Assembly (NCBI RefSeq): GCF_000314735.2
Contig: NZ_KB375270.1
Coordinates: 2,480,001 to 2,544,000, forward strand
Length of the DNA: 64,000 nt
Direction of reading: 5' to 3'
DNA from: Afipia felis ATCC 53690
GTDB lineage: Bacteria > Pseudomonadota > Alphaproteobacteria > Rhizobiales > Xanthobacteraceae
Every line of letters starts with the position of its first letter. Within the stretch, counting starts at the first letter, position 1. The translations under genes were made by a program, and so were the position numbers. The notes beneath the pieces are model-generated. The model made no database searches. It was not told the origin of the DNA and was given only the letters and a program-made list of their open reading frames with translations. Of the stretch, positions 27,438-47,439 are shown in pieces.

Positions 27438-29429
27438 ATGAAAGGAATCTGCATCGTGGCGGGAGGCATCCACGCCATCATCGTAACAAGCACGTGCGTA
27501 TCGGCCGCAGATTTGCCACTCAAGACGCCGATTGCGAATGCCTATGATTGGACCGGACTGTATGTGGGCGGCCATGTCGGCTATGGCCGGGGAAAGGTTG
27601 CCTCCGATTTGGGAGCTCAGGGCTTCTTATTTTCAAAAGCATCGTTTGGTGCTCTCTATGGAGGCGCGCAGATCGGTTACAATTACCTGCTGCCTTCGCA
27701 CGTTCTGCTTGGGGCGGAGGTGGACCTCTCGTTTCCAAACTATCTCAACGCCGACGACGTGGTCTGGTCAGGGATGGGAACTCCGGGCGGTACCACCGAG
27801 AAAATCGATTACATCGGGACCTTGCGTGGTCGTCTCGGCTATGCGTCTGATCAGTGGCTGGTCTACGCGACTGGAGGACTTGCGTGGTCGAGCGGGCATT
27901 TCTTTGCAGTCGATCTAGCGTCGGGTGCTGAACAAACGCTCTCGCAGGTTCGGACCGGATGGGCTGCTGGTGGTGGTGTCGAGTTCGCGTTCGATGCACG
28001 CTGGAATGCACGTCTCGAATATCTATACAGCCAGCTTGGTCCCGCCAGTGTTGCGTTCACGTCGGGTGAGCAATACGGCTCGCGCTTCGACATGCACATG
28101 ATCCGGCTTGGCCTCAATTATAAGCTCACCGGTGGCACGGATGCTGCCACGCCAAAGATAGATGCCTCGTTGCAGGATAACAGCGATGTTTGGGAGATTC
28201 ACGGCCAGACGACCTATGTTCAGCAGGGCTATCCGAAATTCCATGCGCTCTATTCAGGCCCGAACAGTCTGCCGACATCGGCGCAGACCAAGAGCACATG
28301 GACGGCAAGTGTCTTCATTGGCGTCAGACCGTGGGATGGCGGCGAGATCTACTACAATCCTGAACTGCTTCAGGGGTTCGGACTGAGCAGCACGGTCGGC
28401 GCGGGTGGCTTCCCGAACGGCGAAGCGCAGAAGTCGGACTTTCTGTATCCGCACTACAATTCGTCACGGCTGTTTTTGCGTCAGACGTTCGGGTTGGGCG
28501 GAGAACAGGAAACGGTCGAGAGCGGCTATGGTCAGATGGCCGGGAAGAAGGACATCTCGCGGGTGACAGTTCAGGTCGGTAAATTTGCCGTGCACGATGT
28601 TTTCGACAGCAATGCATATGCACAGGATCCCCGCGTGGATTTCCTCAATTGGTCGATCTGGGCTGCGGGTGCGTTCGATTATCCGGCAGACAAGGTCGGG
28701 CTGACCTATGGTGCCGTAGCTGAGCTGAATCAGAAATCCTGGGCCCTGCGCACTGGATATTTCCTGATTGGAAATGAGCCGAATTCAAACAACTTCGATA
28801 TGGCCCTGTTCAAGCGAGGCGGTTATGTCACCGAGCTTGAGACTCGCTACGCCTTGTTCGGGCACCCCGGCAAACTCCGCGTCACAGGCTGGTTGCACGA
28901 GTCGTTCTCCGGCAGCTATCGTGACGCGGTCAATCTCGTCCTGGCGAACCCGGGTCTCGATCCTACCGATGCGATCGTCAGCACGCGTCAAGGTCGTACC
29001 AAATACGGCTATATCTTCAACCTGGAGCAGTCGGTCACGGATGACATCGGCGTGTTCGCGCGCTGGAGCTGGAATAGCGGCACGAATGAGATTTCGGCTT
29101 TCACCGATATCGATTCCAGTCTGTCATTCGGCACGTCTATTGGCGGTGCCGCGTGGGGACGCCCGAGCGATAAAATCGGTATTGCCGGAGCCATCAACGG
29201 ACTTTCCAAGGATCACCGGGATTATATCGCTGCTGGAGGTCTGGGAATTCTGATCGGCGATGGCGCGCTCAACTACAGGAACGAGAAGATTCTCGAAGCC
29301 TACTACGCTTACAGCTTCAATAAATGGAGCACGCTGACATTCGACTATCAATTCCTCGCGGACCCCGCCTACAACGCGGATCGTGGCCCCATCTCGGTGT
29401 TCTCGGTGCGGGCGCATGCGGAGTTCTAG
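27438..29429 (+). CDS. Outer-membrane protein: Omp31-like barrel fused to an OprB-like porin
   Basis: A 663-residue secreted protein. After a signal peptide (about residues 1-24) comes an eight-stranded Omp25/31-type barrel with DWTGLYVGGHVGYGRG near its start and ARLEYLYSQLG / HMIRLGLNYKL near its end (to about residue 232). Residues 245-663 match carbohydrate-selective OprB porins: DVWEIHGQTTYVQQGYPKF, DVFDSNAYAQDPRVDFLNW, and the C-terminal SVFSVRAHAEF ending in Phe. Two barrels in one chain is unusual but occurs in bradyrhizobia. It follows the Nramp genes by 170-380 bases and may admit the metal or its chelate. Confidence 0.85.
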   Translation: MKGICIVAGGIHAIIVTSTCVSAADLPLKTPIANAYDWTGLYVGGHVGYGRGKVASDLGAQGFLFSKASFGALYGGAQIGYNYLLPSHVLLGAEVDLSFPNYLNADDVVWSGMGTPGGTTEKIDYIGTLRGRLGYASDQWLVYATGGLAWSSGHFFAVDLASGAEQTLSQVRTGWAAGGGVEFAFDARWNARLEYLYSQLGPASVAFTSGEQYGSRFDMHMIRLGLNYKLTGGTDAATPKIDASLQDNSDVWEIHGQTTYVQQGYPKFHALYSGPNSLPTSAQTKSTWTASVFIGVRPWDGGEIYYNPELLQGFGLSSTVGAGGFPNGEAQKSDFLYPHYNSSRLFLRQTFGLGGEQETVESGYGQMAGKKDISRVTVQVGKFAVHDVFDSNAYAQDPRVDFLNWSIWAAGAFDYPADKVGLTYGAVAELNQKSWALRTGYFLIGNEPNSNNFDMALFKRGGYVTELETRYALFGHPGKLRVTGWLHESFSGSYRDAVNLVLANPGLDPTDAIVSTRQGRTKYGYIFNLEQSVTDDIGVFARWSWNSGTNEISAFTDIDSSLSFGTSIGGAAWGRPSDKIGIAGAINGLSKDHRDYIAAGGLGILIGDGALNYRNEKILEAYYAYSFNKWSTLTFDYQFLADPAYNADRGPISVFSVRAHAEF

Positions 29430-29629
29430 ATCGTGCGCATTCCCCGTCGGAGCATGGATCTTGCAACGATTGCCTCGAATAACTTCAAAAACCGGTCTCA
29501 GAGTTTGTTGTCAGCACCGAGCGCTCTCATCGAACATCAGCCCAGGCTGTCATGAATATGTTTGCGCGATGGTACGAACAGCTTGGGTTCGTCGGCTGTT
29601 CAAGCCATTCGGGATGACGAACCTTCATC

Positions 29630-29735
29630 ACGAACGCAGCCCGGAAGATATCGCTAGCAGGAGGATCGCTGCGTGACGTCCAGATGCTGACCGGTCACAG
29701 CAGCCCTGGCATGCCCAAAACTAAATTTGGGCCCA
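29630..29735 (+). pseudogene. Degenerate tyrosine-recombinase C-terminal fragment
   Basis: In one frame the sequence reads AGGSLRDVQMLTGHSSPGM, which matches the C-terminal box of XerC-like integrases (GxSLRDVQxLxGHSS). No upstream catalytic domain, start or matching downstream end exists, and the tyrosine box is missing. It is probably the scar of an earlier integration at this site, just before the island integrase. Confidence 0.5.
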
Positions 29736-29792
29736 TTGCGTTTGGCCTCAAACACCTATGTATCTGATATATATAGTATTTCTGTGATATTC

Positions 29793-29804
29793 TGGCGGAG
29801 AGAG
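29793..29804 (-). other. Candidate attachment core: tRNA-Ser-like 3' end
   Basis: TGGCGGAGAGAG is the reverse complement of CTCTCTCCGCCA, the typical 3' acceptor end plus CCA of a tRNA-Ser. No tRNA body follows to the right, so only the last 12 bases are present, as expected for one attachment site of an element integrated into a tRNA-Ser gene. A GCTTGG-AGT-CCAAGC dyad lies at 29814-29828. The partner site is not in the window. Confidence 0.35.
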
Positions 29805-29932
29805 CGTCTTTCCGCTTGGAGTCCAAGCAAATCCAGCCAGGTCCAACTTATCCTTTAATTCCAGGCACTATTTCAATTTTCTCGTCCAGAACCGTCGAAC
29901 TTAATCCTGCCAAATCCTAAAAGTTTTGTGGT

Positions 29933-31126
29933 ATGGATTGTGGGATGAGCGGCAAACATCCCCATAAAGTTCTTTCAACCGTTCGCATCAATTCGATCAA
30001 ATCAAAGGGTCGATTTGCCGACGGCAACGGGCTCTACCTCGTTGTCGATCCATCCGGTGCAAAGCGCTGGGTCCTGCGGACAATGGTTCGGGGAAAACGG
30101 CGGGACGTCGGGCTTGGGGGATTGAAGCTGGTGTCCCTTGCCGAGGCGAGGGAAAAAGCCGCCGAGTTTCGGAAGATGGCGCGGGAGGGCGGCGATCCCG
30201 TGGCGGAGCGTCGTAAGGCCACCAAAAAAGCCCCAACGTTCAAGGAAGCCGCTAAGGCCGTATACGAAAGCTACAAAGCTGCCTGGAAGAACCCCAAGCA
30301 CGTTGCTCAGTGGATCAGCAGCATGGAGGCCTATGCGTTCCCTACCATTGGGACGTTACGCGTCGACGAGATCGAGACCACGGACGTCATGAGAGTCCTG
30401 TCTCCCATTTGGCTGTCCAAGCCCGAGACGGCGCGGCGGATTCGTCAGAGAATGAAGACGACTCTCGACTGGGCCAAAGCCTCCGGGTTTCGCTCAGGCG
30501 ACAACCCAGTGGAGGGCGTGACCAGCGGTCTGCCGAAGCACACCGACAGAGACAACCATTTCCAAGCCATTCCATATAAGGAAGTGCCCAAGTTCGTCGC
30601 CGCTCTCCGAGATTCAAATACCAACGAGATCATCCGTCTCGCGTTTGAATTGCTGATTTTGACGGCGACCAGAACCAACGAGGTCTTGAATACGGATTGG
30701 GCTGAGGTCGACCTGCAGAAGAAGATTTGGACCATTCCCGCATCACGGATGAAGATGTCCAGAGAGCACCGGGTACCTCTTTCAGGGCGCGCTCTGGAGC
30801 TTTTTAAGTGCGCGCAAAAGGTTGGCAATGAGGAAGGTTTAGTTTTTCCGGGGCGCGACAACGAAAAGCCCCTATCCAACATGGCGTTCTTGATGACCAT
30901 TCGGCGGATGGGGTTCGAGTTCACGGCCCATGGGTTTCGTTCCGCTTTCCGAGACTGGGCAGCCGAGACGACGAACTTTCCACGCGACGTCTGTGAAATG
31001 GCACTCGCTCATGCGATCAAGAATAAGACGGAAGCAGCTTATCGTCGTGGCGACTTGTTTGAAAAACGCTGCGATTTAATGGATGCGTGGGCTCGGTATG
31101 TGGAGGAGAGACAGAATGGTAGATAA
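29933..31126 (+). CDS. int: P4-type tyrosine integrase (DUF4102 + phage integrase)
   Basis: A 397-residue site-specific recombinase. The N-terminal arm-binding domain has FADGNGLYLVVDPSGAKRWVL and LGGLKLVSLAEAREKAAEF; the catalytic domain shows the Arg in TATRTNEVL, HGFRSAFRDWA (H-x-x-R), the second His in LAHAI and the nucleophile in AAYRRGD. All catalytic residues are present, so it looks functional. It is the first gene of the island and overlaps the next gene by 11 bases. An ATG four codons downstream is an alternative start. Confidence 0.95.
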   Translation: MDCGMSGKHPHKVLSTVRINSIKSKGRFADGNGLYLVVDPSGAKRWVLRTMVRGKRRDVGLGGLKLVSLAEAREKAAEFRKMAREGGDPVAERRKATKKAPTFKEAAKAVYESYKAAWKNPKHVAQWISSMEAYAFPTIGTLRVDEIETTDVMRVLSPIWLSKPETARRIRQRMKTTLDWAKASGFRSGDNPVEGVTSGLPKHTDRDNHFQAIPYKEVPKFVAALRDSNTNEIIRLAFELLILTATRTNEVLNTDWAEVDLQKKIWTIPASRMKMSREHRVPLSGRALELFKCAQKVGNEEGLVFPGRDNEKPLSNMAFLMTIRRMGFEFTAHGFRSAFRDWAAETTNFPRDVCEMALAHAIKNKTEAAYRRGDLFEKRCDLMDAWARYVEERQNGR

Positions 31127-31958
31127 ACCCTTCAAGGAGAAGCTTGAAGAGGAGGTCGAGAATTTCCAGGAAATATACGAGCAGTTTGACAGACGTCTGA
31201 AAGACCTGTTCGAGAACGAACAATGCACCAATGTTTGGGACGGCTCGTTCAACGCGCCCTTTGATGAACTGCCAGGGGGAGGTGCTGCTGCCTCCAGCGA
31301 CGAGCTTGATGAGCAAGACCCTAATTTTGCGGTGCTTTACACCATTCGGTCGCTCAGGTTGCACGAGCTAAATTTCTTTACGGCGTTGAAATTTCAAGAG
31401 CTAAGTCCCGATTTCGCTGCAATATCCGATGCTTATGAATTGGGCGTTATAGACGCCAATGATGTGCCGCAACTTCAACGGATTTTCCGTACCGCTGCGG
31501 GTAATCCGCTTGTCCAAGGAGTCAAAACTGATCGATCTGACGCCATTTTTTGGAGAACCTTATTGGAAATCTTTTGTCGAGCATACGTCGGGAAGGTCGG
31601 CCGCCCGCCATGGGGCGACTTCGAATATCTGCAGCTGGCAATCGACCTGAACTGGATCTGTCATGAGAAGTTGAAGAGTTGGGACGTAAGCAAGGCCCGA
31701 GAGTACCTCAACTCAAACAAGGATTTTCGTAAGGGCTATCCGTCCAGTGAAGACCGAAATGCCGTTGGCGCTAGGCGTATTATGCAACTTGAAGAATGGG
31801 CGAAGTGCAAATTCGGCAAAAATTTTCTGTCGACAATTATCGAGACAAAACAAGACTTGGTTCTGAAACATATAAGAGAGATGCCCGCAAAAACGTACTT
31901 TTCCGACGACGCGTTAAAACAGATTATGGGATCTTTGCGTGCTCCGCGCGAGGGGTGA
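31116..31958 (+). CDS. Island protein of unknown function
   Basis: A 280-residue soluble, acidic, largely helical protein that I do not recognise. The N-terminus (FKEKLEEEVENFQEIYEQFD) is likely coiled coil; residues 25-65 hold a GG-rich acidic linker. No catalytic motif stands out. Its ATG lies within the last codons of the integrase gene, suggesting co-transcription and perhaps a role in mobility or regulation. Lower G+C than the flanking chromosome fits an acquired origin. Confidence 0.65.
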   Translation: MVDKPFKEKLEEEVENFQEIYEQFDRRLKDLFENEQCTNVWDGSFNAPFDELPGGGAAASSDELDEQDPNFAVLYTIRSLRLHELNFFTALKFQELSPDFAAISDAYELGVIDANDVPQLQRIFRTAAGNPLVQGVKTDRSDAIFWRTLLEIFCRAYVGKVGRPPWGDFEYLQLAIDLNWICHEKLKSWDVSKAREYLNSNKDFRKGYPSSEDRNAVGARRIMQLEEWAKCKFGKNFLSTIIETKQDLVLKHIREMPAKTYFSDDALKQIMGSLRAPREG

Positions 31959-32035
31959 GCCGCGCAATAATTCTCCCTATTAGTGCAAAACCAGACTGCG
32001 TAGATCGACCTCGTCAACAATGAGCGAGGTCAAAA

Positions 32036-32308
32036 ATGCAGTCTGGATTTCTCCGGTTGCCTTTCGTCATCAGTCCGAAGGGCCCTATCCCCTGTAGCAA
32101 ATCCACCTGGTGGGCAGGCGTAAAGTCTGGTCGTTTTCCTGAGCCCAGGCGCAACGGAAGAATGACCTTCTGGCATCGGGACGATATCGCGGAACTTATT
32201 GAACTGCTGAAAGATAATCTCGACTGGCGGCACCGGCAAAACCCGTCAAGCGAGCTACAATCTCGGAAAACCTGCAACGATCCAGGTGAAGGAGGTCGTG
32301 CATCATGA
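32036..32308 (+). CDS. AlpA-like helix-turn-helix regulator/excisionase
   Basis: A 90-residue protein of the AlpA/MerR-like excisionase type: GFLRLPFVISPKGPIPCSKST, then WWAGVKSGRFPEPRR and a FWHRDDIAELIELL helix, as in P4-island AlpA proteins that recognise DNA and control integrase or island genes. Its stop overlaps the next start in an ATGA arrangement, placing it at the head of the modification operon, so it may also be that operon's regulator. Confidence 0.85.
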   Translation: MQSGFLRLPFVISPKGPIPCSKSTWWAGVKSGRFPEPRRNGRMTFWHRDDIAELIELLKDNLDWRHRQNPSSELQSRKTCNDPGEGGRAS

Positions 32309-33324
32309 CCTCCGCAGTCTCAGTGCTCGTGGATCAGGATGAGGGCGCGCAGCCGTCACTTGGAACGAGCTTGATAGTGCCCGATAATCCGGAAGAGGCA
32401 GCTGATGCTGTTGTGTCCGGCCACGTTGAAACGTGCGAATCGTATATTCGGCATGTCGCTGGATTGGTCTATCTGTGCTGCAACAAATTCCAAGCCGAAG
32501 ATGAGCGGACTCGCTTTTCAAAGCGGCTTGAAGAGCTGTGCTTTCTCTCGGCGAGAGATGCGGCCGCGCCTGAGCGCACAAGCAGCAAGCTTTCCATGTT
32601 GAAGAAGGTCGGAAAGCACGCAGATATCTTTTGCGGTTCTCGCGTGCTTCCATTTCTCGCGCCGGAACATTCAAAGCTTTATCAGCTTGCACTCTTGCTT
32701 GAACTGCTCGAATGCGACACCGACCGGTTTGTTAGCGAGCTGAACTGGCTTGGCTCTGATTTCACGCGCGACGACGTGATCGCTCGCATAGCTGGAATTA
32801 AATCGGGTGCGCCGCCGCAAGAGGCTTCGGCTGAGCCAAATCCGGAGGAGCATTCTGCATCCTCGCCAGTTGCTAGCGATACCACTCCGTTCGACCTAGT
32901 TGCCGGGACGGTCACAGCTAACGATGCCCGTATCCTTCGGCGCGACCCGGTGGACCCTGCCGAATGGGATCGCCTTCTGCCCAGGCCGGTCCTTTCTGAA
33001 AGCGCGGCCCTTGTCATTATCACCAAGCTTTCCGAACTCAGCGTGGTCGAAATGCGACTGGCTCCGCATTTTGGATTTAGCCGTATCGAGCACATTTTTG
33101 TGGTCGGCGATGCGGGTGCAATCGACCTGATCGACCAGCAAGTCATGGTCGTGGCCACTCGCGGCAAGACGGATTGCGCAGTTCCCGAGACGTCTATTCC
33201 AACGTCAGACAGCCCTTGTGATTCAGCAGTTGCATTTTTCGGCAACGCAGAAAGGAAATTCCAGCTTTTTAGCGGTTCTGGCGTTCGCGACGGTTGGGAA
33301 GCCCTCAGATGGAACGAGGCCTGA
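32305..33324 (+). CDS. MT-A70-like protein with degenerate catalytic motif
   Basis: A 339-residue two-part protein. Residues 40-165 are helical, with KLSMLKKVGKHADIF and LAPEHSKLYQLALLLELL, a segment seen before MT-A70-type domains of mobile elements. Residues about 196-339 follow the MT-A70 fold: FDLVAGTVTAND where DPPW should stand, LPRPVLSESAALVIITKLSE, HFGFSRIEHIFVV, VMVVATRGK, and the closing RKFQLFSGSGVRDGWEALRW, which corresponds to the KLELFAR..GW end of the family. Because DPPW is lost it is probably a non-catalytic, DNA- or partner-binding subunit. The assignment is from eye alignment only. Confidence 0.55.
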   Translation: MTSAVSVLVDQDEGAQPSLGTSLIVPDNPEEAADAVVSGHVETCESYIRHVAGLVYLCCNKFQAEDERTRFSKRLEELCFLSARDAAAPERTSSKLSMLKKVGKHADIFCGSRVLPFLAPEHSKLYQLALLLELLECDTDRFVSELNWLGSDFTRDDVIARIAGIKSGAPPQEASAEPNPEEHSASSPVASDTTPFDLVAGTVTANDARILRRDPVDPAEWDRLLPRPVLSESAALVIITKLSELSVVEMRLAPHFGFSRIEHIFVVGDAGAIDLIDQQVMVVATRGKTDCAVPETSIPTSDSPCDSAVAFFGNAERKFQLFSGSGVRDGWEALRWNEA

Positions 33325-33325
33325 T

Positions 33326-33955
33326 ATGGGACCGGCCGGTCTGATGCCGTTGCTTGGACGCATTGTTGCGTCTCAGACGGTCAATCGCGATGTCGCCCTC
33401 CTGCTGTCGGGGGGTATCGACAGCTATTCGGTCGGCGTCGCCTGCGAGCGCGAGGGCAAGCGTGTGATTGCCTACACGTATGAGTTGGAAGGCATTCCGT
33501 CTGTTGATCGAACCAAGGCGGAAATCTTGGCTCGCCGTCACGGCTGGCCGTTGAAGGTCGTTATCGTTCCGACCGGGGACATCGCAAACGACTTTTTCCG
33601 CTTGGTCGGCGTTTGGAGATGCCGGAAGAAGACCCACGTCGAAGTGATGTTTCCCATGATGTACGTGCTGTCTGCCATCGACGAGCAAGACGTGTTCGCC
33701 GGTTGGAATGCCGACGATCACTACGCCAACACGGCTGAGGATCAGCGAAAGCTCGCTGTCCTTCGTCGGAACGGCGCGACCGCCAATAAACTGATCGCAG
33801 CCTTCGATGATCTCCGGCGCAATCGGTACGCCGCCCACGATGCCTCAGAGTCCCAAGACACTTTTTGGATTGCTTCTCAGATCGCCTCGGCTGCTGGGAA
33901 GAGACTTTTGGACCCGTATACCAATGACACCATCCGCCAATTCTTCTCGCTTTGA
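33326..33955 (+). CDS. PP-loop ATP pyrophosphatase, asparagine-synthase-like
   Basis: A 209-residue protein with the PP-loop LLSGGIDSYSV (S28-G-G-I-D-S33), which binds ATP for substrate adenylation. Downstream, VMFPMMYVLSAI and DVFAGWNADDHYANT align with the P-x-Y-LL and SGEGADELFGGY regions of asparagine synthetase B, closer than to QueC or DndC, since the Cys-rich zinc or Fe-S motifs of those are absent. There is no glutaminase domain. It begins one base after the MT-A70-like gene and overlaps the methyltransferase by 32 bases. An adenylating, amide-forming role on a carboxylate is inferred. Confidence 0.75.
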   Translation: MGPAGLMPLLGRIVASQTVNRDVALLLSGGIDSYSVGVACEREGKRVIAYTYELEGIPSVDRTKAEILARRHGWPLKVVIVPTGDIANDFFRLVGVWRCRKKTHVEVMFPMMYVLSAIDEQDVFAGWNADDHYANTAEDQRKLAVLRRNGATANKLIAAFDDLRRNRYAAHDASESQDTFWIASQIASAAGKRLLDPYTNDTIRQFFSL

Positions 33956-35402
33956 TATTTCTGCGCTTTCAGACCCTCGAAAGCCGATCGTACGCGAGGC
34001 ATTGCGTTCGATCGGGCTTGACGTGCGGGATACCGATTTCACGGTTAACGTGAAGCTTCAGAAGGGCGGCGGGGTCAGTGGCCTCTTCGAAGAGGCGCTT
34101 CTCAAACATCCCAAAGTCAACTTCTTCGAGCCCAAATTGGAATCGATGGTCGGTCTTTGCCGACGTTGGGCTAAGCTGACCGAGCTTGCTCGTGACAAGT
34201 TTGCCGAAATCGCGTCTCAGAAAAAGCCGGTTGTTCGGACTATCGGACAAAGCGCTAGTCTATTTCGGCGTATGGCAGAACTGCGACAGGCATCGGAGCG
34301 CAGTCGCTACACGGTGATTTCCATGTTTGCAGGTGGTGGAGGGTCAAGCCTCGGCCATCTCGCTGCAGGGGGAAAGGTCGTTCTCGCGAATGAGTTCGTT
34401 CCTGAAGCCGCAGAGACCTACCGCCGCAATTTTACGGGCACTTTCGTAGACACGAGGGATATCCGGGAACTCCTCAAAGATGAAGCTGGCTTGCTGGCCC
34501 TACTGAGGGGGCTCGATGTTGATGTCCGGAATATTGATGTCCTCGACGGCTCACCACCGTGTTCGGAATTCAGCGTCGCTGGGCGGGGTATTGCTGATCC
34601 GACCATTATGAAGAACTATTCCGACACCAAGCAACGGGACATTTCGGGGCTTCCGATCGATTTTGCACTTTTTGCTCTGCTGATCCGCCCGCGGGTCGTG
34701 GTGATGGAGAATGTGCCGAGCCTCGTTACGCGTGGAAAGGCTATCTTGGCCGCCATCGCCAGCGTCTTAGGCGAGCAGTACTTCGTTTCGTGGGTGGTGC
34801 TCAACGCAAACGATTTTGGTGTTGCCCAAGCTCGTCGTCGGCTGTTTTTCATTGCGGTACGTAAAGACGTCGGATCGGTCATCGGAATCAACAGCAACTT
34901 TGACGTTCATCGGGCTTTCCCGAACAGGACGTTCATGCATGAGACGATCAGAACCGCCTTCGCGGACCTCGATCAGACAGCGGATGACGTGCGGCCGTGG
35001 ATTTATTCAGCGCGCCAGACCGGCTTGGAGCGGGCAATCGTAACGCTGCCAAAGAACCCGAACCGCCTAACCCGGCCAGTGCAATTTGATGGTGAGAAGA
35101 GACGCAATTTCACCCTCACGCGCTGCTCGTGGGATCTTCCCGCGCCCACGTTGACGGTTACGGCGCAGCAGCCGTCAGGACTGGCGGGTGCGATCCACCC
35201 TGATCAAGACAGAAAGTTCACTATCCCAGAGCTGAAGCGGCTGACAGGTCTGCCCGACGACTTTCAGCTGTCCGGAACCGTTGCCCAAGCCGCCGAACGC
35301 ATCTGCAGAATGGTGCCTCCACCAATGACTCAGGCCATTGCGGAAAGCGTCTACGAACGCGTGCTCGAACCCTATCGGAAGGCAATCCATGAAGAAGGCT
35401 GA
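33924..35402 (+). CDS. DNA cytosine-C5 methyltransferase with altered motif X
   Basis: A 492-residue C5 DNA methyltransferase. Motif I is FAGGGGSS (135-142), motif IV GSPPCSEFS with catalytic C213, motif VI ENV (262-264) and motif VIII QARRR (302-306); residues 310-430 hold the target-recognition region. The end (LTGLPDDF, then ERICRMVPPP) aligns with LQGFPDDF...RQIGNAVPPP of ordinary enzymes, so the motif X Gly-Asn is Cys-Arg, with Arg at 462. In engineered enzymes a Lys at this Asn accepts carboxy-SAM. A 130-residue N-terminal extension is unrecognised. The ATG at 33924 lies inside the PP-loop gene; the CmoA-like gene overlaps its end by 14 bases. Confidence 0.92.
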   Translation: MTPSANSSRFDISALSDPRKPIVREALRSIGLDVRDTDFTVNVKLQKGGGVSGLFEEALLKHPKVNFFEPKLESMVGLCRRWAKLTELARDKFAEIASQKKPVVRTIGQSASLFRRMAELRQASERSRYTVISMFAGGGGSSLGHLAAGGKVVLANEFVPEAAETYRRNFTGTFVDTRDIRELLKDEAGLLALLRGLDVDVRNIDVLDGSPPCSEFSVAGRGIADPTIMKNYSDTKQRDISGLPIDFALFALLIRPRVVVMENVPSLVTRGKAILAAIASVLGEQYFVSWVVLNANDFGVAQARRRLFFIAVRKDVGSVIGINSNFDVHRAFPNRTFMHETIRTAFADLDQTADDVRPWIYSARQTGLERAIVTLPKNPNRLTRPVQFDGEKRRNFTLTRCSWDLPAPTLTVTAQQPSGLAGAIHPDQDRKFTIPELKRLTGLPDDFQLSGTVAQAAERICRMVPPPMTQAIAESVYERVLEPYRKAIHEEG

Positions 35403-36075
35403 GTTTTCATTTGTAGACCAGGCAGAGGGCGACTTCGAAAACCACATCGAGTCGCACGTTCCCGACTTTGCAGGCCTTCGTCGCGAAATCGTGTCCCTCG
35501 CTCCAACGCTCGTCCAGCCAGGCACGACCGTTCTCGACGTAGGCTGTTCAAGTGGAATGCTGCTCCGATTGGTCCGCGATGAAGTCGAGAGGCGTCGCTC
35601 GGGTACCTTCGCTTATCGCGGTATCGACATCGTTCCTGAATTTCAATCAAGTTGGGATCGTGTCGCGGCACCCAATCTGTCGTTTGAGGTCGCCGATGTT
35701 TGCGATCAGGCGTATACCAGTCTCAGTTTGGCGATTAGTGTCTTCACAGCGCAGTTTGTCCCGTTCCACCGCAGGAAGCCGCTTTTTCGGACATTGTTGA
35801 ACGGATTGGTAGACGGCGGTCACATGATCGTCGCGGAGAAGCTCTTGGCCTCGTCAGCGCGCTATCAGGACGCGTTGACCTTCAAATACTATGACTTCAA
35901 ACGCGACCGAGGAATTCCTGCCGAGGATATTCTCGACAAAGAAAAAACGCTGCGCGGATTTATGTCTTCTTATACGAGGGATGAACTCATCGACGTGTTG
36001 AAAGAAGTGGGTTTCAGGGACATTCAAGACTTCTGGTGCCAGTTCCCTTTCGTGGGGTTCATTGCGAGCAAATGA
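35389..36075 (+). CDS. CmoA-like carboxy-SAM synthase
   Basis: A 228-residue Rossmann SAM enzyme. It aligns along its whole length with E. coli CmoA as I remember it: HIESHVPDF (for RSVPGY), LVQPGTTVLDVGCSSG, FTAQFVPFHRR, GLVDGGHMIVAEKL, YYDFKRDRG and FWCQFPFVGFIASK at the very end. CmoA makes carboxy-S-adenosylmethionine from SAM and prephenate. The key Arg199 of E. coli appears to be Glu185 here (DKEK), with Lys on either side, so the carboxyl donor or product could differ. No cmoB is nearby; instead it is coupled to the C5 methyltransferase, whose stop it overlaps. Confidence 0.8.
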   Translation: MKKAEFSFVDQAEGDFENHIESHVPDFAGLRREIVSLAPTLVQPGTTVLDVGCSSGMLLRLVRDEVERRRSGTFAYRGIDIVPEFQSSWDRVAAPNLSFEVADVCDQAYTSLSLAISVFTAQFVPFHRRKPLFRTLLNGLVDGGHMIVAEKLLASSARYQDALTFKYYDFKRDRGIPAEDILDKEKTLRGFMSSYTRDELIDVLKEVGFRDIQDFWCQFPFVGFIASK

Positions 36076-36217
36076 TATTGACCACGATTTTACTCGGTAA
36101 AAGTCAGGTCACGCGCGGATGCTGGCGGAGCTACCCTGATGAGCCTAAACTGGGAGTGTTCTAAGAAAATCACGGATTTAAATTGGCACACTCGCACTTT
36201 CTGTCGAAAGGCCGCCG

Positions 36218-37114
36218 ATGAGTCTTGAGTTTGAGAAGTTAAAGCAAGAAAGAGCCACGGCTTTCAAAAAGCTGCAGGATTCGCTTCAGTCGACGCTGGG
36301 CTCCCATAGGGCCACGCGGCTAGCGAAGGCTGGCTGCCGCGACTCGGGGACTTTACTTCATGATGACATCGCGCGGCGACATGCCCGGATGCTCGCCGAT
36401 GATTTGAAGGCGATGTGCGAATCGAATGCGGGCTCTCAAGATGACTTAAGATTTCTGACCATACTTCACGCTGTGTCGCCTCTATCCTGTGATGACGCAT
36501 TGGCAAAGTCGTCCGAACTGGAGCGGCATCTATTGGGCTGCCTTTCTTCGGCGCGCGTCGGCTGCCTTGCAGCTGTCGAGTTTGAGGTCGTCAACCTTTC
36601 ACTCCTCCGGAAGATCAAGTCACGCTCGAACAGCGAGACCCGTAAACTCGACGTCTTGGAGAAGATCGGTACGCCGGATATCGCCTCCGGTGTGCTGGTC
36701 CACTTGCATGGCGTTCTAAACTTCTCAAAGGCCAAGCTAGACGCAGATGCTTTTAGGGCAGAACTGCGAAAGGAGAAGGCCTGGTCGCGCTCGAACTATC
36801 AGATAGAAATCAAAAATTTTCACAGCGGCAAACCTCTCGCCGAAAATCTAGAGCGGATTGCGTCTTACCTTACAAAGGGCGGCAATGAGCCGCTGAAGTA
36901 CAACCCCGGATTCGGGAGAGACGCTGATTCACTGCTTGATACTCAGATCTGGCGCGGAAAATCTGGCAGGGTTGAGAACGGTGCGGAGGCGGTCCCAGAC
37001 GAGCGGGGTCTGACGATTGGCGAAATCGGGTTGCTCGATCAGATTTGGCAACGGCAGATGGCCACGCGCGACGACAATCGCGGATACCTGATCGAGACGC
37101 TTGAGGCGCCATAG
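36218..37114 (+). CDS. Island protein of unknown function (298 aa)
   Basis: A basic, mostly helical protein that I do not recognise. The N-terminal 40 residues are a probable coiled coil (LEFEKLKQERATAFKKLQDS), and LGSHRATRLAKAGCRDS follows. No enzymatic motif is visible. It begins 142 bases after the CmoA-like gene on the same strand and is followed by an inverted repeat, so it may be the last gene of the modification operon or the first of a second unit. Confidence 0.6.
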   Translation: MSLEFEKLKQERATAFKKLQDSLQSTLGSHRATRLAKAGCRDSGTLLHDDIARRHARMLADDLKAMCESNAGSQDDLRFLTILHAVSPLSCDDALAKSSELERHLLGCLSSARVGCLAAVEFEVVNLSLLRKIKSRSNSETRKLDVLEKIGTPDIASGVLVHLHGVLNFSKAKLDADAFRAELRKEKAWSRSNYQIEIKNFHSGKPLAENLERIASYLTKGGNEPLKYNPGFGRDADSLLDTQIWRGKSGRVENGAEAVPDERGLTIGEIGLLDQIWQRQMATRDDNRGYLIETLEAP

Positions 37115-37120
37115 TATTGA

Positions 37121-37155
37121 GTTACTGATCAGATCAAAAACCAGATATCAGTAAC
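37121..37155 (+). repeat. Inverted repeat after the 298-aa gene
   Basis: GTTACTGAT (37121-37129) and ATCAGTAAC (37147-37155), nine-base perfect arms with a 17-base loop, six bases after the stop codon. It lacks a T-run, so it could be a weak terminator, an RNA stabiliser or an operator for the gene at 37379. Confidence 0.4.
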
Positions 37156-37378
37156 AGCAGCAATAAGCAGCAAGCAGTTCATAGCCATATCATTTGAACT
37201 CGGACGTCAGCCACCAGACGACCTTGACGTCGCTCGATTGAAGGCTCGTCCGAGCAAATTATCGTGAGTGGAGTCCGAAGCAGTCCAGCCACGTCCGACG
37301 GATCAGAGGCGCAGCAATCAAAGTACAACTGCGGTTCGAGCACTCGTTTAAACTGCGTATCCATAACAGGAGATACGC

Positions 37379-37954
37379 ATGTCAAATCGTCCCGAAAAGG
37401 TTTTGAATTATCTCAGGAGCTGTAAGGTCCCATTTAGGGATTACGTTCGCTCCGCAGACAATGAAGCATTGCTCGATTTGCTGAAGCGCAATTCACGCAA
37501 TGAGCAAATCGTCTGCGTGAGCGTTGATGAACTCTTCAATCGCAAGGAAACAGCTGGATTATCACGTTATGTGCCGCACACAAGCAAGGATATTGAAGCG
37601 TTGCTTGAGCCAGCCTTGCAGATCACGAGGGGTGTTTCGAAAAATCCTAAAGAGAAGCTCATTCTCGGAGGTGAGGTCCGTCGCAGCAAAAAACGCCAGA
37701 TTCGAGCTTACGCTGACCTATACACACTGATCGATACGACGCTCGTGAACGCGACGCTGACTGGCTATATCGTTCACCCACTGTCAGATCCTTTCGTGAT
37801 GTTGAGGATGAAGCGGCCATTTGAACAGGAGCTGTGCTTCACTTTGGCTCAGAAGGAGTTGGCATTTGCGTCCTGGCAAATCGTGGCTGAGCAAGCGCTG
37901 GGCCTTTGTCCGATCTCGCCGCTTCCGGACCCGTTCCAAGACGCCGCGGAGTGA
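37379..37954 (+). CDS. Island protein of unknown function (191 aa)
   Basis: A 191-residue protein, no family recognised. It has an alternating strand/helix character: EQIVCVSVDELFNRK, a basic middle (RRSKKRQIRAYADLYTLIDT) and hydrophobic LTGYIVHPLSDPFVMLRM. An AGGAG ribosome-binding site (37368-37372) precedes the ATG. It converges on the SNF2 helicase gene across 147 bases. Its place between modification genes and helicases suggests a component of the same system, which is inference. Confidence 0.6.
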   Translation: MSNRPEKVLNYLRSCKVPFRDYVRSADNEALLDLLKRNSRNEQIVCVSVDELFNRKETAGLSRYVPHTSKDIEALLEPALQITRGVSKNPKEKLILGGEVRRSKKRQIRAYADLYTLIDTTLVNATLTGYIVHPLSDPFVMLRMKRPFEQELCFTLAQKELAFASWQIVAEQALGLCPISPLPDPFQDAAE

Positions 37955-38101
37955 CTGTTCATCGATCGATGCTGTTGCTTGAGACTCGCGATGGAAGGCC
38001 AAATCCGGTCTTCCTTCGTCAGTTTCCACCGGCTCTTTGCGGCCAGCTATCCGTTACTTTTGCCCAACATAGGCTTTCGTGTTTTTGAAGCCATAACGTA
38101 A

Positions 38102-41100
38102 TTAGCGAAAGCTGCCTCGTTCGTCTCGCTTCACTACAGCGACGCGTCCCAGCACCGCATTCTGATCTAGAGAGTAAAGCATTCCCGCATGCTGCGTTCG
38201 CAATCCGAGCATGGATTTGACCTCCGCTGCCAAAGCGAGTTTTCTGCAGTCGGGAGACAATTGCGCAGCCTCAATTCGGCATTTTTCTGTTTTGAGAACG
38301 GCTACCAGATGTGGGCGGATGCCGTCCCAATGTTCACGAGCATCTGCGGTGCGGCGCGTGCCGGCCAAGAGATCTTGGATTGGCTGTAAACGGCCAGAGG
38401 AGTCTGCGATGTACTGAAAATGTACAGCAAGACCGAGTAGCGTGCAGGTGCGAATATCGTCTGGATGTGTCGCCACGCCGCTCCACTGGCATCGCTTGGC
38501 CTCAATGGGTGCGCAGAATTTTCCGTAAGCCGACCGCACGCCTTCCTCTTCTAAGAATACCGCATTTGATATGCTGCTCGTTACCAGATGTTCAGACAGG
38601 GCACGCTTGCCACTGATGGAAGAAGCTGTGAGTTCACCGGGTAACACGCGCTTGCCCGTGACAGCGCAAGGCTGCAGTACATCTGGAGCAACAATCTTGC
38701 CAGTCTTTGCGCAGCGCTCGGATTCACGGGGAAGCAGTATGCGTTTTGTTTCCTGGCACCGTATGAATTCCTGGACGTGGCCGCGTTTGCCGGAAATGGC
38801 GGAAACAGCCTCCTGGTCCAGCCGATATGACTTGCCCGAAACTTCGCTTTGTCCAAGCTGCTCGTTCAGCACGTCAGCTTTTGTGAAACTGCATTGTCCA
38901 AAGTGCGCGGGCTCACCTTTCCGGCCGCTGACGGCGCATGTTTTTAGTAGTGTACGGTCAACGACCGCGTTCGTGATGTCGGACATACCCGCTTCGTCAA
39001 TCAGCAACGATTTTCCTGAGAGGGAGCATTGAAGAAGATGTTCCGGCAGTGCATAGCGGCCGCTCACTTCTGAACGGGCGAGTCGGTGTTTTAGGGCGCG
39101 CGTGCCAGACAAAGCGCAAGTACCAAGGCAGTCGGCAGGCACCGTCAGATTCGTCAGTGCGCATCGCTCCAGCGCAGGCGCTGTCTCAATGCGGCCATCG
39201 GACGGTATGATGACGAGCTCGCTTTCATAGGATGTGTCGTCAAGTTGGTAGCGTGCCCGGACGTTCGCGCGTCGGCTCACCTGCCCATCCAGAGCAACAA
39301 GAGTCGTATCGATTTGTGGCGTGAAATCGTCTTCGAGTTTTTTACGTTTGCGAGCGTCATTCCCTGCAGCGCGTAATTCGTTCTCTCGCCGTTCAAGATA
39401 AAAGCGGTTGAACTCCACCACGTTCGGATCACGATGCGCCTCTTCCAGAATGCAAGCGGTATTGATGCCGGTTGCCTCAGGTTGTTGCAAAAGATCGGGC
39501 AAGGCATCGAGGGTCATGGTAGCTTGAGCGTGGTCGGAAGGTTTACAGGGGACAGTTACAAGCCGCTCATAACTGTCATGACCAGTGGTCGCGCGGACGC
39601 GAGCGACGGCGGTGCCATCGAAGCGCCGCTGCACGCTAAGTATAGCGACGTCGGGTGCAGTTCCGCCGAAGCCCGATACCCAGCCGTGTACGAGCTCCTC
39701 TATCTTTCGCCGTGGTTCTACGTCGTTATCGTGCAGCTGATGGAGGCCGGAGGTGGTCACCCGGTCCACGAGACGGAGGAAGGCCGGGCTACCTGGGAGA
39801 TAAAGCGGCGCCTTGGCATACTCGACTTCAACATTCTCACTCAGTCGCGCATATTCGGGCATACCCTTTATCGTGATGCGCAGAACGCCAGGTGTTACTT
39901 CTGCGATCGTGCCGCCGAGGCACGCAAAAGCCGCCCGAACGAACGACTCGAATTCCATGGAAGGATGGACTTTTTCGAGTATCGGCGTTTGCGGTCCGAC
40001 ATATTCGTAACCATCCATGGCTCCAAGGGTGGTCTCGATATTCGCTTTTTCTTCTTCAAGGGTTTTCTTGGCAGCATCGATACTACGTGCAACCTTTTCG
40101 GCCGCAGCTGCCATGTCACGTCCGGCAAGGGCTGCAACAACAAGTTCACGAATCTTTTCATCGAATCCGGTGCCTTCCTCGCCATCGCCGACACCTGATG
40201 CCTCAAGCAGAGATTCGATATCGCCGATGGCGTCGGTCGCCATTTGCAGTTTGGTCATGAGGCGGCCGACGATGTATTCCTCAAACGTGCCGGCAAGCAT
40301 GACATTGTAAATGACGACGTTTTTGTGCTGGGAGCCCAGGCGCTGAACACGGCCAATGCGTTGCTCGACAATCATTGGATTCCACGGCAAGTCGAAATTG
40401 ATAAGGACGTTGGCAATCTGGAGATTGACGCCCTCCGATCCGGCTTCGGTTGATACAATAGCCCTTATTTCTGGAGGGTTAGCGCGAAAGCGCGCTATCG
40501 TGTCTTGGTTGCGCTGCCCGGACGAGCCGTTAATGATGCCAACTTTCAAGCCAAGCTCTTCAAGGAAAGCCTGGATAGTGGTCTGGGTCTCGCGTCGTCC
40601 CGTAAACACCACCATACGCCAACCGGTGGGATTTTGCTGCTGCAGCATGGAGACGAGTTGACGAAGCCCTTCCAGCTTCGCGCTTGTTCGCATGGGCGTG
40701 ACTATGGCTTGCACAGTTGCGGCCAACTCCATCGGCACCGTCCCGTTCCGCGCCATGGTTTGCAATTGTGCCATGAGAGCGTGCGGGCTGCTGGTCAACG
40801 CTTGCAGGATGCTTATCTGCGCAAGGCGATTCAGTTTCTGGATCGGTTTAGCAATAGCCTTGATAAGGGCGAGCTCCTCCGATGAAGGGACCACTTTATG
40901 CAGTTGGATCTTGCGCTCGGGAAAATCTAAGTTGGCATCGCCACGCCGGACACGTGACATGTAACCATAGACAATCTTGCGAAAATCCTCTCGTGCATCC
41001 GGTTTTAGGATGCGTGCCGTCTCACGCTTGTCTGCGATAAAGCGGCGCGCGAACATGCCTTCGCTTCCGAAGGGATTTTCATGGCCTCGAGCAACGGTAA

Positions 41101-41779
41101 GCAGATCGACTAAGGAATAGAGGTCCCATAGCCGGTTCTGAATGGGTGTTGCCGTCAGCATCAGCACGTAGCGAAAGCGGCGTTGTTGCAATGTGCGGTG
41201 AAAAACCTTGGCTACCTGTGGCGTGGGGTCGACGCCGTAAAGGTTACGAAGCTTATGGGCTTCGTCCAGTACCAGCATGTCGAAGCGGTCGTCGGGAATT
41301 TTGTCGAGATGAGCGCGTGCCGAATGATAGGTTGTGATGACGGCGCCGACCTCGTCGGGTTCGGCCGAAGCAAGTTTACTTCCGGTAATGACCTCGCCTG
41401 GAATATCGAATTTCGCCTCTAACTCATCTTTCCATTGGGGGCCGAGCAGCTTGGGAGCCACAATGAGAATCTTGGCAACGCGGTTGCGCGCAATCAGTTC
41501 GCTGGCGACGAGCCCTGCGGAAATGGTTTTGCCGAGGCCAACATCGTCAGCAAGCAGGGTCACGGGCAAACGACGGCAGAAAGTGATGAGGTTCTGGACC
41601 TGATGGTGAAAGGGCTCCAGCCGGTCTTTCCAGCGGAATTCGGATTTGAAATCGTCCCGACTCTCAATCACGATAGGGTCGGTGAGACCCCATTCCAGCG
41701 CCGCGCGATAAACCGCGTATTCGCCGGTTGACCGTGCGCGCCGCAATATCTTTGTCTGTAACCCCTGATCTGAAGCCAT
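38102..41779 (-). CDS. SNF2/HepA-family helicase with C-terminal 15-residue repeats
   Basis: A 1225-residue protein. The SF2 translocase core lies at about residues 50-520: Walker A LLADDVGLGKTISAG, DEAH box VLDEAHKLRN, LTATPIQN, and motifs V-VI STEAGSEGVNLQ...EQRIGRVQRLGS, closest to HepA/RapA-like enzymes that move on duplex DNA. Residues 525-870 include a coiled coil (EKVARSIDAAKKTLEEEKAN). Residues about 871-1080 are 14 tandem 15-residue repeats, described separately. The start at 41779 (MASDQGLQTK) is preferred over one 20 codons upstream. It faces the modification operon and is divergent from the nuclease-helicase gene, so a DNA-defence role is likely. Confidence 0.85.
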   Translation of the reverse strand: MASDQGLQTKILRRARSTGEYAVYRAALEWGLTDPIVIESRDDFKSEFRWKDRLEPFHHQVQNLITFCRRLPVTLLADDVGLGKTISAGLVASELIARNRVAKILIVAPKLLGPQWKDELEAKFDIPGEVITGSKLASAEPDEVGAVITTYHSARAHLDKIPDDRFDMLVLDEAHKLRNLYGVDPTPQVAKVFHRTLQQRRFRYVLMLTATPIQNRLWDLYSLVDLLTVARGHENPFGSEGMFARRFIADKRETARILKPDAREDFRKIVYGYMSRVRRGDANLDFPERKIQLHKVVPSSEELALIKAIAKPIQKLNRLAQISILQALTSSPHALMAQLQTMARNGTVPMELAATVQAIVTPMRTSAKLEGLRQLVSMLQQQNPTGWRMVVFTGRRETQTTIQAFLEELGLKVGIINGSSGQRNQDTIARFRANPPEIRAIVSTEAGSEGVNLQIANVLINFDLPWNPMIVEQRIGRVQRLGSQHKNVVIYNVMLAGTFEEYIVGRLMTKLQMATDAIGDIESLLEASGVGDGEEGTGFDEKIRELVVAALAGRDMAAAAEKVARSIDAAKKTLEEEKANIETTLGAMDGYEYVGPQTPILEKVHPSMEFESFVRAAFACLGGTIAEVTPGVLRITIKGMPEYARLSENVEVEYAKAPLYLPGSPAFLRLVDRVTTSGLHQLHDNDVEPRRKIEELVHGWVSGFGGTAPDVAILSVQRRFDGTAVARVRATTGHDSYERLVTVPCKPSDHAQATMTLDALPDLLQQPEATGINTACILEEAHRDPNVVEFNRFYLERRENELRAAGNDARKRKKLEDDFTPQIDTTLVALDGQVSRRANVRARYQLDDTSYESELVIIPSDGRIETAPALERCALTNLTVPADCLGTCALSGTRALKHRLARSEVSGRYALPEHLLQCSLSGKSLLIDEAGMSDITNAVVDRTLLKTCAVSGRKGEPAHFGQCSFTKADVLNEQLGQSEVSGKSYRLDQEAVSAISGKRGHVQEFIRCQETKRILLPRESERCAKTGKIVAPDVLQPCAVTGKRVLPGELTASSISGKRALSEHLVTSSISNAVFLEEEGVRSAYGKFCAPIEAKRCQWSGVATHPDDIRTCTLLGLAVHFQYIADSSGRLQPIQDLLAGTRRTADAREHWDGIRPHLVAVLKTEKCRIEAAQLSPDCRKLALAAEVKSMLGLRTQHAGMLYSLDQNAVLGRVAVVKRDERGSFR
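38540..39168 (-). repeat. Protein-level tandem repeat, 14 units of 15 residues
   Basis: Within the SNF2 helicase the sequence falls into 15-residue units such as TCALSGTRALKHRLA, QCSLSGKSLLIDEAG, PCAVTGKRVLPGELT and ASSISGKRALSEHLV. The pattern is x-[C/S]-x-[ILV]-[S/T]-[G/N]-[K/R]-x-x-[hydrophobic], four to five residues, then Leu. Cys and Ser alternate at position 2. The CxxSGK units look like half zinc knuckles or beta-hairpin turns. Confidence 0.8.
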
Positions 41780-42024
41780 AGTGTGCAAGTCCCGCCCTCG
41801 GAAACAAGAGTGCCGCCGAGGACAGACCTTCGCAAGCATGACTTTCGCTAGGTCCCCGAAGTTCAGTAGGGACGAGGGCGTTTGGCCGCAGAATAGTAAG
41901 TTACGGGCTGCGATCTTGTCGCCCTTCGAGCGGCGTGATCATCTAAAAAGGACCGATAGCCCGGTTCATCTGCTTAAGGCGGCGAAGCGGCAACGGCTTA
42001 AACGGTATGGGTTAGGCGTCAAAT

Positions 42025-45000
42025 ATGCAAAAGACTGGCACCACGATTGTACTCAGCGCTCACGATCTGGTGGGTAACTTGTACTGCGCTCATCTGACTG
42101 GCGTGGATCTCCAGGTTGCGCAGGGAGCGTTGGCCAAACCCGCTCGCTGGGATCCACTACTCGATATCTTGCGGGAACGCGGACAAAAGCATGAGCAGGC
42201 CTTCCTCGACCATCTTCGCGCAAGCGGCTTTGAGCCGCTTCTGATCGATGGTGTCGATGTTACGGATGATGCCGTCGCCCGCACGCGAAAAGCTATGCAG
42301 GCAGGGCCTCCAATTATTGTTCAGGCTGCACTGCGCGATGGAAACTGGGTTGGTCGGGCCGATATTCTGCGGCGGGTCGAAAAACCGAGTTCTTTGGGGG
42401 CATGGTCCTACGAGATTATTGATACAAAGTTGGCTCGAGAAACCAAGGGCGGCACCGTATTGCAGCTGTGCCTTTATGCTCAGCTCCTGACCGCCATGCA
42501 GGGCGTTGAGCCAGAATACGTATACGTCGTCGCTCCCTGGTCGGACTTTCAGCCGCAACAATTCCGTGTCGCCGATTACATGGCTTTCTTTCGAAAAGCC
42601 CAGTGTGCCGCGCAAGCTGCCGTTGATGCGGGAGATAAATACACATCGATCGACTATCCGCATCCCAGAGCGCATTGTGACGTGTGCCGGTGGGAGCCAC
42701 AGTGCGATGCACGCCGCCGCGCCGATGATCATCTGTGCCTAGTGGCCAATGTCAATACTTTGCAGATGAACGAACTAAGGGCCAACGGCATATCGACCGT
42801 CAAGGCGCTTTCGGAAATGACCGTACCGCTGGCATGGAAACCTAAACGCGGCGCAGCGGCAAGCTACATCAAGGTGCGCGAACAGGCGCGCATCCAGGTT
42901 GAAGCCCGTGAAGGGGGTGGCCTGCGTTATGAATTACTTGATGTCGTTCCCGGAACAGGATTGTGCCTCTTGCCGCCTTCGTCAGCGGGTGATGTGTTCT
43001 TCGACATCGAGGGCGATCCATTTATTGGTGAAGGCGGCTTTGAATACCTGTTCGGCTACCATTATCGAGATAGCTCTGGTGAAGATCACTACGAGGCGCA
43101 ATGGGCATTTGACCGTGCATCAGAAAAAAAAGTGTTCGAATCCTTCATGGATTTCATCACTGCTCGGTGCGCTGAATTTCCCGATATGCATGTTTACCAC
43201 TATGCGCCTTATGAGCCTGCCGCCCTCAAGCGCATTATGGGGCGGTATGCCACGCGCCAAGCCGAGGTGGATAATCTCCTGCGCGGCAAAGTGATGGTCG
43301 ATCTTTATGCCGTCGTGAGAAATGCCATCAGAGCGAGCGTCGAAAGCTACTCGATTAAGAAGCTTGAGCCCTTTTATAGTTTTGAGCGCGCCATGCCGCT
43401 TCAAGACGCCAATGTGGCCCTTGCCGCAATTCAAGCAGGTCTGGAACTTGGCGACGCGCAATCGATCGATGAAGTGACGCGCAAATCGGTCGCCGCCTAC
43501 AATCAAGACGATTGTCGCTCCACCTCCGCCTTACGTGAATGGCTTGAAGAATGCCGCACACAGGCGATTGCGGATGGGGCTGTGATTGACAGGCCAGCGC
43601 CGGGCAGCGACGGACCTAGCGATGATGTCGCGGAGCAAGAAGCTCAGATTAATGCATTGATCGCGCGCCTGGTTCATGACGTGCCAGTTGATCCGGTCGA
43701 ACGGACAGCCGAACAGCACGGTCGATGGATATTGGCCCATTCCCTAGATTGGCACCGCCGGGAAGAAAAAGCCGTTTGGTGGGAATACTTCCGGTTGGCG
43801 GCGCTCACGGTGGAAGAATTACTTAATGAAAAAGCGGGTTTAGGCGGGCTTACGTTTCTGAATACCGTGGATCGTAGCAAACAAGGCATTCCGACTGATC
43901 GGTACCGGTTCATCCCGCAGGACACCGATATCCGTGGTGAAGCGGACTTGCGTATGTGCGGAGGCGATAAGTTCGGCTCCGTGATCGCCATCGCCCAGGA
44001 TGACCTCACAGTAGACATCAAGAAGTCGAAGGCGACAGCCGATATCCATCCGGAGGCCGTATTCGAACATACACATATTCCTACTAAGGAGCAGCAAGCC
44101 TCGCTCTTTCGGCTTGGAAGCTATGTCGCCGACAATGGCATCCAAGGTGTGGGGCAGTATCAGGCGGCCCGTGATCTTCTGCTCCGATTGCCGCCACAGC
44201 TTGGCGGCGCCGCATTACATGTTCAGGGAAAGACAGTCCTGGAAAATGCGTTGCGGATCGCTCCAGCTCTTTCCGACGGTGTCTTGGCGGTGCAAGGACC
44301 GCCCGGAACTGGAAAATCCTTCACAGGCGCGCATATGATTTGCCGGTTTATTAAAGATGGAAAGCGTGTCGGCATCACGGCAAATAGCCATAAGGTTATT
44401 CGCAACCTGATCGATAAGGCTGTCGAAATAGCGCTCGCCAGCGGACAGAACGTCAAGGCCGGGCAAAAGCTTTCTTCGAAAGAGCCGGACGGTGATCATG
44501 TACGAGTCTATACGGACAACGCCAAGACAATCGCCGCGATCGGGTCCGGCGAGGTACAGGTATTAGGCGGGACATCGTTTTTTTGGGCGCGCGAGGATGC
44601 TGCGAATCTTGTCGATGTTCTATTTGTCGATGAGGCTGCGCAAATGTCGCTCGCCAACGTTCTCGCGGTTTCCCAAGCGGCTCCTCAGCTCATTCTTTTG
44701 GGTGACCCGCAGCAGTTGGATCAGCCTATGCAAGGCTCGCATCCTGATGGAACTGGAGTCTCGGCTCTCAATCATGTTCTAGCAGGTCGTCAAACAATTG
44801 ATCCGGTACAGGGACTCTTTCTGGAAGAGACCTGGCGGATGCACCCAGCCATCACGGCGTATAACTCTGAACTGTTTTATGACAGTAAGCTGGAATCTGT
44901 TCCCCAGTGTGGTGGCCAGAATGTCATCTCCAGCGGGCCTTTCACCGGTACAGGTCTGCGCTACGTGCCAGTTGTCCATACGGGCAATCAATCTAGTTCG

Positions 45001-46218: not shown

Positions 46219-46472
46219 TCAGTGCTCATGCTCAGCTTTCCAAGATCAAAAGCCGGAGACGCCATGAAGGTTTCAAGCGGCAATTTGCTCTTAGTGCTTT
46301 CTTTTCGCTTCCTCACTATGTTCCTTCGCCAAGGCCAAACTTTGCGGTTTTCGCGAAACGCGTGTGTGCCGTAGCTTTTTTTCTTAGCACCGCATCTTTC
46401 GGGAAAGGCAATACAACTACCGATGAGCCTAATCATTCTTCTCAATGTGATTGAGACTGTTTGCAATGAAAG

Positions 46473-46502: not shown

Positions 46503-46504
46503 TC

Positions 46505-47431: not shown

Positions 47432-47439
47432 TTTCATCG

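Follow-up and report, generated by a model that had tools for sequence, protein, structure and literature searches.

The closest described relatives of the system considered here come from Synechococcus phage S-B43, in which CmoA makes carboxy-S-adenosylmethionine (Cx-SAM), CmoX forms 5-carboxymethylcytosine at GC sites, and CmoY adds glycine to give the glycine amide of 5-carboxymethylcytosine, according to the main text of PMC12783734 (December 2025). The same text describes an arginine of the phage CmoX that contacts the Cx-SAM carboxylate. Here we analyse a 64,000-nucleotide stretch of Afipia felis ATCC 53690 (contig NZ_KB375270.1, positions 2,480,001 to 2,544,000; the window), which carries an operon with homologues of all three enzymes and a further protein, u339, with a catalytically dead MT-A70 fold. 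A preliminary description of the window had proposed natural 5-carboxymethylcytosine formation and stated that no such natural system had been described. The proposed chemistry holds up in kind, but the claim of novelty falls with the published phage system. The description also overlooked that ligase and transferase are fused, with a break in frame, that the operon sits in a mobile element, and that the MT-A70-like protein is a conserved partner. PMC12783734 was the only paper on this chemistry found in a search that left most subscription papers outside its reach, and the words 'fused', 'prophage' and 'MT-A70' do not occur in its main text. The chemistry is known from phage; what is new is its form in integrative elements, where the enzyme is fused and accompanied by a dead MT-A70 protein.

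S-B43 (PDB 8yf3; MN018232, locus L005) and the window encode the same three enzymes, at 36-37% identity each, with the same diagnostic arginine in CmoX and the same CmoA signature. The phage genes are separate, in the order CmoA, CmoY, CmoX, and the 12 kb retrieved around them contain nothing that matches u339, whereas the window has u339, CmoY-CmoX (fused in relatives) and CmoA beside an integrase on a bacterial chromosome. The variant M.MpeI N374K has a basic residue at the place of the phage arginine (main text of PMC12783734); unlike the window enzyme, it is engineered, acts at CG sites and has neither a CmoA nor a ligase partner. In the Escherichia coli CmoA/CmoB pathway to 5-oxyacetyl uridine (cmo5U) in tRNA, Cx-SAM is the donor, as proposed for the window, but the window's genome has no CmoB over cut-off and its CmoA has Glu/Arg in place of Arg199/Glu203. 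Finally, the METTL3-METTL14 and MTA1 complexes share the MT-A70 fold with the C-terminal domain of u339, although u339 would partner a C5 cytosine transferase. METTL14 is the dead partner of METTL3.

Results

Five plus-strand genes at 32036-36075 overlap or nearly abut downstream of a tyrosine integrase, confirming the overlapping operon of the preliminary description (AlpA-like protein, dead MT-A70-like protein, PP-loop enzyme, C5 transferase and CmoA). Pfam and NCBIfam profiles confirmed the kinship of the ligase, the transferase and CmoA. The features are as follows.

29933..31126, + strand: tyrosine integrase, upstream of the operon (PF00589, PF22022 and PF13356 above cut-off; PHROG integrase, 188.9 bits)
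32036..32308, + strand: AlpA/excisionase-like regulator (weak matches; counterpart in locus L009; 4-base overlap with u339)
32305..33324, + strand: u339, catalytically dead MT-A70-fold protein (helical N-terminal part; MT-A70-fold domain at about residues 191-339)
33326..33955, + strand: CmoY-like PP-loop amide ligase, N-terminal part (SGGIDS motif; PF00733; ATG at 33326, TGA after CTT)
33950..33955, + strand: CTT TGA, +1 frame break inside the ligase (contains CTTTGA, the prfB site core)
33948..34271, + strand: CmoY C-terminal part and linker, in the CmoX frame (open reading frame (ORF) open from 33807; homology to the L009 fusion)
34272..35402, + strand: CmoX, predicted DNA cytosine C5 carboxymethyltransferase (8yf3 match; SPPC; Arg501)
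35389..36075, + strand: CmoA, predicted Cx-SAM synthase of the DNA-modification type (TIGR00740; SpCmoA; Glu/Arg signature; 14-base overlap with CmoX)

Overall, we consider it fairly probable (about 0.7) that an integrative element carries here a DNA hypermodification operon, consisting of CmoA, CmoX and CmoY, the last two of fused ancestry, and the partner u339; the operon would be likely to protect the element's DNA from restriction.

Among PDB chains, the window transferase matched phage CmoX (8yf3) best by a wide margin (222.8 bits, E 6.6e-65), the next chain being a DNMT1 (75.1 bits), and it contains a C5-methyltransferase domain (PF00145, 164.4 bits). Numbered from 33807, the catalytic cysteine of its SPPC motif is Cys252 (codon 34560-34562), and Arg501 (codon 35307-35309) aligns with R350 of the phage enzyme SpCmoX, where 5-methylcytosine (5mC) enzymes have Asn. 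For comparison, two sets of loci were collected by CmoX similarity. Viral contigs entered the first set as the best 80 of 590 and the second as the best 80 of 220 (69 of them new), and 15 of 147 matches were kept from a pattern search. Because contigs overlap (L049/L149, L082/L171, L068/L184, and the nearly alike L126/L127), counts drawn from these sets are not independent. The catalytic cysteine is present in 101/101 rows of the first set aligned with M.HhaI. Arginine occupies the Cx-SAM position in 96 of these rows (100 first-set loci, the window included, plus M.HhaI); three others are gapped there because the rows are cut short, and two have Asn (M.HhaI and L022). All 70 second-set rows, again with the window, have the arginine. 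Since the loci were chosen by CmoX similarity, these figures serve as a consistency check. L022, a CmoX-related C5 methyltransferase that has Asn at this position and lacks a CmoA match, offers a natural control.

A tree of the transferases, from which L018, L020 and L021 were left out as cut short at the arginine, placed the window with L009 (support 100/98) and then with L010 and G719 (100/96), G719 being another genome of the class; 81 phage and IMG/VR rows neighbour this group, and the window and several bacterial rows sit on long branches. Homology to a proven phage system, together with the diagnostic arginine, strongly supports the prediction that CmoA and a C5 transferase make 5-carboxymethylcytosine naturally. 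The pairing also recurs elsewhere, with a CmoA match in 83 of the 100 first-set loci.

The window CmoA aligns with TIGR00740 over nearly its full length at 79.6 bits, below the equivalog cut-off of 193.3 bits, and with SpCmoA at 35.8% identity over residues 6-229. In E. coli CmoA, Arg199 holds the carboxylate (PMC3663124); the window protein has Glu there and Arg four residues further on. This Glu/Arg arrangement, in place of Arg199/Glu203, was found in 131 of 139 aligned rows at each position, the window and SpCmoA included, so that the window CmoA resembles the phage type in both signature and full-length homology. Because SpCmoA is a proven synthase, we take the charge swap as a feature that could mark DNA-modifying CmoA proteins. 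The absence of cmoB near the operon, already stated in the preliminary description, extends to the whole genome, in which neither a CmoB above cut-off nor a second CmoA was found. A CmoA of the tRNA pathway was rejected on the lack of CmoB over cut-off and on the phage-type signature.

The ligase belongs with CmoY as a PP-loop ATPase with an SGGxDS motif and homology to SpCmoY (37% over 200 residues), and it is closer still to the Hyphomicrobiales locus L009 (47% over 203 residues). This homology strongly supports the amide-forming PP-loop enzyme proposed earlier, in the light of the proven phage CmoY. The ligase is not a single open coding sequence in the window, its frame being broken at 33950-33955. 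Homology to both SpCmoY and L009 reaches the residues IRQFF, which adjoin CTT TGA; past the break, homology to L009 resumes in the frame of the transferase ORF and runs through into CmoX (38% over 160 residues; 37% by tblastn for residues 48-136 of the ORF from 33807). This C-terminal part of CmoY has a BLAST match to L009 and not to SpCmoY.

CmoY and CmoX form one reading frame in 3 of 100 first-set loci (L009, L010 and L018) and in 4 of 69 further loci (IMG/VR contigs L124-L127, the last two being near-copies). The clade of seven fused loci takes in three named alphaproteobacterial genomes: the Hyphomicrobiales member L009, the SAR116 member L010, and L018 from uncultured Alphaproteobacteria, whose transferase end is cut short. 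In the fused frame of L018 homology is gone before the arginine, perhaps through misassembly. The homology running on across frames, together with the one-frame relatives, indicates that the window operon most likely descends from a fused CmoY-CmoX gene, broken within the ligase. The L009 fusion returned no match as a single query, no plasmid record spanned 80% of the fusion, and a PDB sequence search with the ligase gave nothing useful. A predicted structure of the L009 fusion (mean predicted local distance difference test score 45.8) was not used.

The C-terminal domain of u339 has the MT-A70 fold, and the catalytic DPPW motif is absent in nine members of the u339 family, one of them partial, in agreement with the earlier description of an MT-A70-like protein without its catalytic motif. 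At E <= 0.01, the family occurs at 7/7 fused loci; the window and G719 also have it, but 0 of the other 160 loci do, 62 of the 167 fetched loci being shorter than 6 kb, which limits the count of absences. u339 thus accompanies the fused CmoY-CmoX gene throughout its clade as a conserved partner. Among 200 relatives, u339 occurs in one, the window's own genome. A helix-turn-helix was not found in the window u339 itself, though it was matched in relatives. As a query against viral contigs u339 had no match, and its PDB sequence search gave nothing useful.

A site-specific recombinase lies in the retrieved stretch of all nine loci (seven fused, the window and G719). Tyrosine integrases were found in the window, L009, L010 (with only the N-terminal integrase domain over cut-off) and G719, and serine recombinases in L010, L018, G719 and L124-L127. 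The contigs L124 and L126 each seem to be a complete element of some 10 kb, with the order recombinase, CmoA, u339, CmoY-CmoX, variable stretch, Rep-like gene, large serine recombinase. No phage structural genes were seen on reading their listed frames, nor at any of the seven fused loci. The variable stretch holds one unknown gene in L124. The fused gene of L125 is followed (L125:4714-10725) by type I restriction-modification genes encoding HsdM, HsdS and HsdR, all three of which pass the cut-off of a Pfam family. The same slot of L126 (L126:4814-7071) and L127 (L127:2623-4880) contains a TRM-like methyltransferase gene (PF02005 at 27.3 bits against a cut-off of 27) and an unknown gene whose PD-(D/E)XK likeness was judged by eye alone.

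In overlapping samples of genomes from the order, the class and the phylum, the operon transferase (E <= 1e-35 or 1e-30) turned up in one of 397, two of 385 and one of 388, respectively; its own genome accounts for every hit except G719 in the class sample. No useful direct repeats at the element ends were found in the part covered, 29200-48000, and with both flanks as DNA queries against 41 genomes each, matches never joined into an empty site. Window positions 47400-48398 have a second copy, 86% identical, elsewhere in the genome (G000:C1:2923072-2924075). CmoX-like genes with the arginine and nearby CmoA-like genes were also seen on two plasmids, Azospirillum argentinense p7 (L007), with a ParB-domain gene, and a Thermobispora bispora plasmid (L006), with adjoining phage capsid and protease genes.

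Downstream of the operon lie the following genes.

36218..37114, + strand: u298 (no match in family searches; from inspection by eye alone, a possible HUH replication protein)
38102-41839: SNF2 helicase with a long C-terminal half (DrmD/DpdE-like, far below their cut-offs)
42025-45438: TM0106-family RecB-like nuclease fused to a superfamily 1 helicase (TIGR03491, 244.5 bits; divergent to the SNF2 gene)

u298 may be part of the element backbone. Further possible HUH replication proteins were seen by eye at L009:12700-13593 and L124:8383-8886, and of the three only the last has a sub-threshold REP_ORF2-G2P match. A different genus of the family (G088) has an interrupted copy of the SNF2 gene, in which a stretch of 507 residues is 98.8% identical to the window protein.

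Alternative explanations

The CTT-TGA break may reflect recoding, a split enzyme, damage or an assembly error. The slippery CTTT at TGA of prfB-type +1 frameshifting is present at 33950-33955. Known prfB elements have a Shine-Dalgarno-like AGGGGG just upstream and a C after TGA (PMC12421855); the window has TTCTTCTCG upstream, without AGGGGG, and T after TGA. The absence of both elements would suit decay of this copy, or an error in the assembly, with the ligase inactivated by the break and the operon making no product beyond unamidated 5-carboxymethylcytosine, if it makes any; so would the single open frame of ligase and transferase in all seven fused relatives, none of which has the break. 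We nevertheless judge this somewhat unlikely, as the remaining operon genes are open and both ligase pieces are well kept up to the break, at 47% and 38% identity to L009. When two-base deletions were simulated in the L009 gene, 57 of 810 placed a stop no more than two codons from the switch and 4 of 810 gave CTT-TGA there; this is only a weak argument against decay, and chance may have produced CTT-TGA at the break. The ligase could instead function as a split enzyme, with CmoY-N made from 33326 and a CmoYC-CmoX chain begun separately within the overlap at ATG 33807, 33840 or 33924. The CmoX frame is indeed open, with these in-frame ATGs 5' of the break, but no ribosome-binding site before them is clear by eye and none of the relatives seen is split likewise, which makes this arrangement unlikely.

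Two further readings concern the function of the operon as a whole. That it encodes an ordinary 5mC methyltransferase beside an unrelated SAM enzyme might be argued from the core fold common to all C5 enzymes and from a CmoA below the TIGR00740 cut-off, but the exchange of Asn for Arg at the cofactor position, the far better match to 8yf3, and the frequent CmoA match at first-set loci make it highly improbable; Cx-SAM is, moreover, the sole cofactor that SpCmoX accepts (main text of PMC12783734). On the residue and the best structure match, a plain 5mC enzyme was rejected. A host defence or restriction-modification system, in which the modification marks self while the SNF2 helicase and nuclease-helicase attack unmarked DNA, would fit the position of these genes directly downstream and the resemblance of the helicase to DrmD/DpdE. 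It would also fit the type I system behind the fused gene of L125 and, in the near-copies L126 and L127, the methyltransferase-like gene and the gene that is nuclease-like by eye only. However, neither downstream gene occurs in the retrieved stretches of L009, L010, L018 (with almost no sequence past CmoX) or L124-L127, nor in that of G719, where only a weak helicase match (21.7%) was found. Four further genomes have the SNF2 gene, and in 12-20 kb stretches from three of them the operon genes were not found. No single nuclease is kept with the modification genes across the eight related loci, and the genes behind the fusion differ among L124, L125 and L126, which gives them the look of variable cargo. 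We therefore rejected the SNF2 helicase and nuclease-helicase as parts of the system, and regard the defence reading as very unlikely.

Discussion

In the element-borne hypermodification that we favour, CmoA would convert SAM and prephenate to Cx-SAM, and CmoX would transfer the carboxymethyl group to cytosine C5 in double-stranded DNA; its target may be a short motif like the phage enzyme's GC. CmoY would then use ATP to activate the carboxylate and form an amide with a small amine, most likely glycine, because the ligase lacks a glutaminase domain and is SpCmoY-like. These three activities we infer by carrying them over from the proven phage enzymes. A single CmoY-CmoX chain, as most likely once encoded in the window, could hand the first product to the second reaction, while u339 would most likely bind DNA and steer or regulate CmoX, as METTL14 supports METTL3. 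The likely role of the operon, and its benefit, would be to shield the element's own DNA from restriction. A bolder version, which we consider quite doubtful, has the fused enzyme, led by its dead MT-A70 partner, put amidated carboxymethylcytosine on both element and host DNA, with a +1 shift at CTT-TGA setting fused enzyme against free ligase fragment.

If the proposed function is correct, 5-carboxymethylcytosine chemistry would extend from tailed phage to integrative elements of bacterial chromosomes, and a natural single-chain, two-step enzyme would make and then use a chemical handle on DNA. A conserved partner protein would also have been identified, open to immediate testing, and bacterial genomes that bear the operon could hold a base modification missed by routine methylome analysis.

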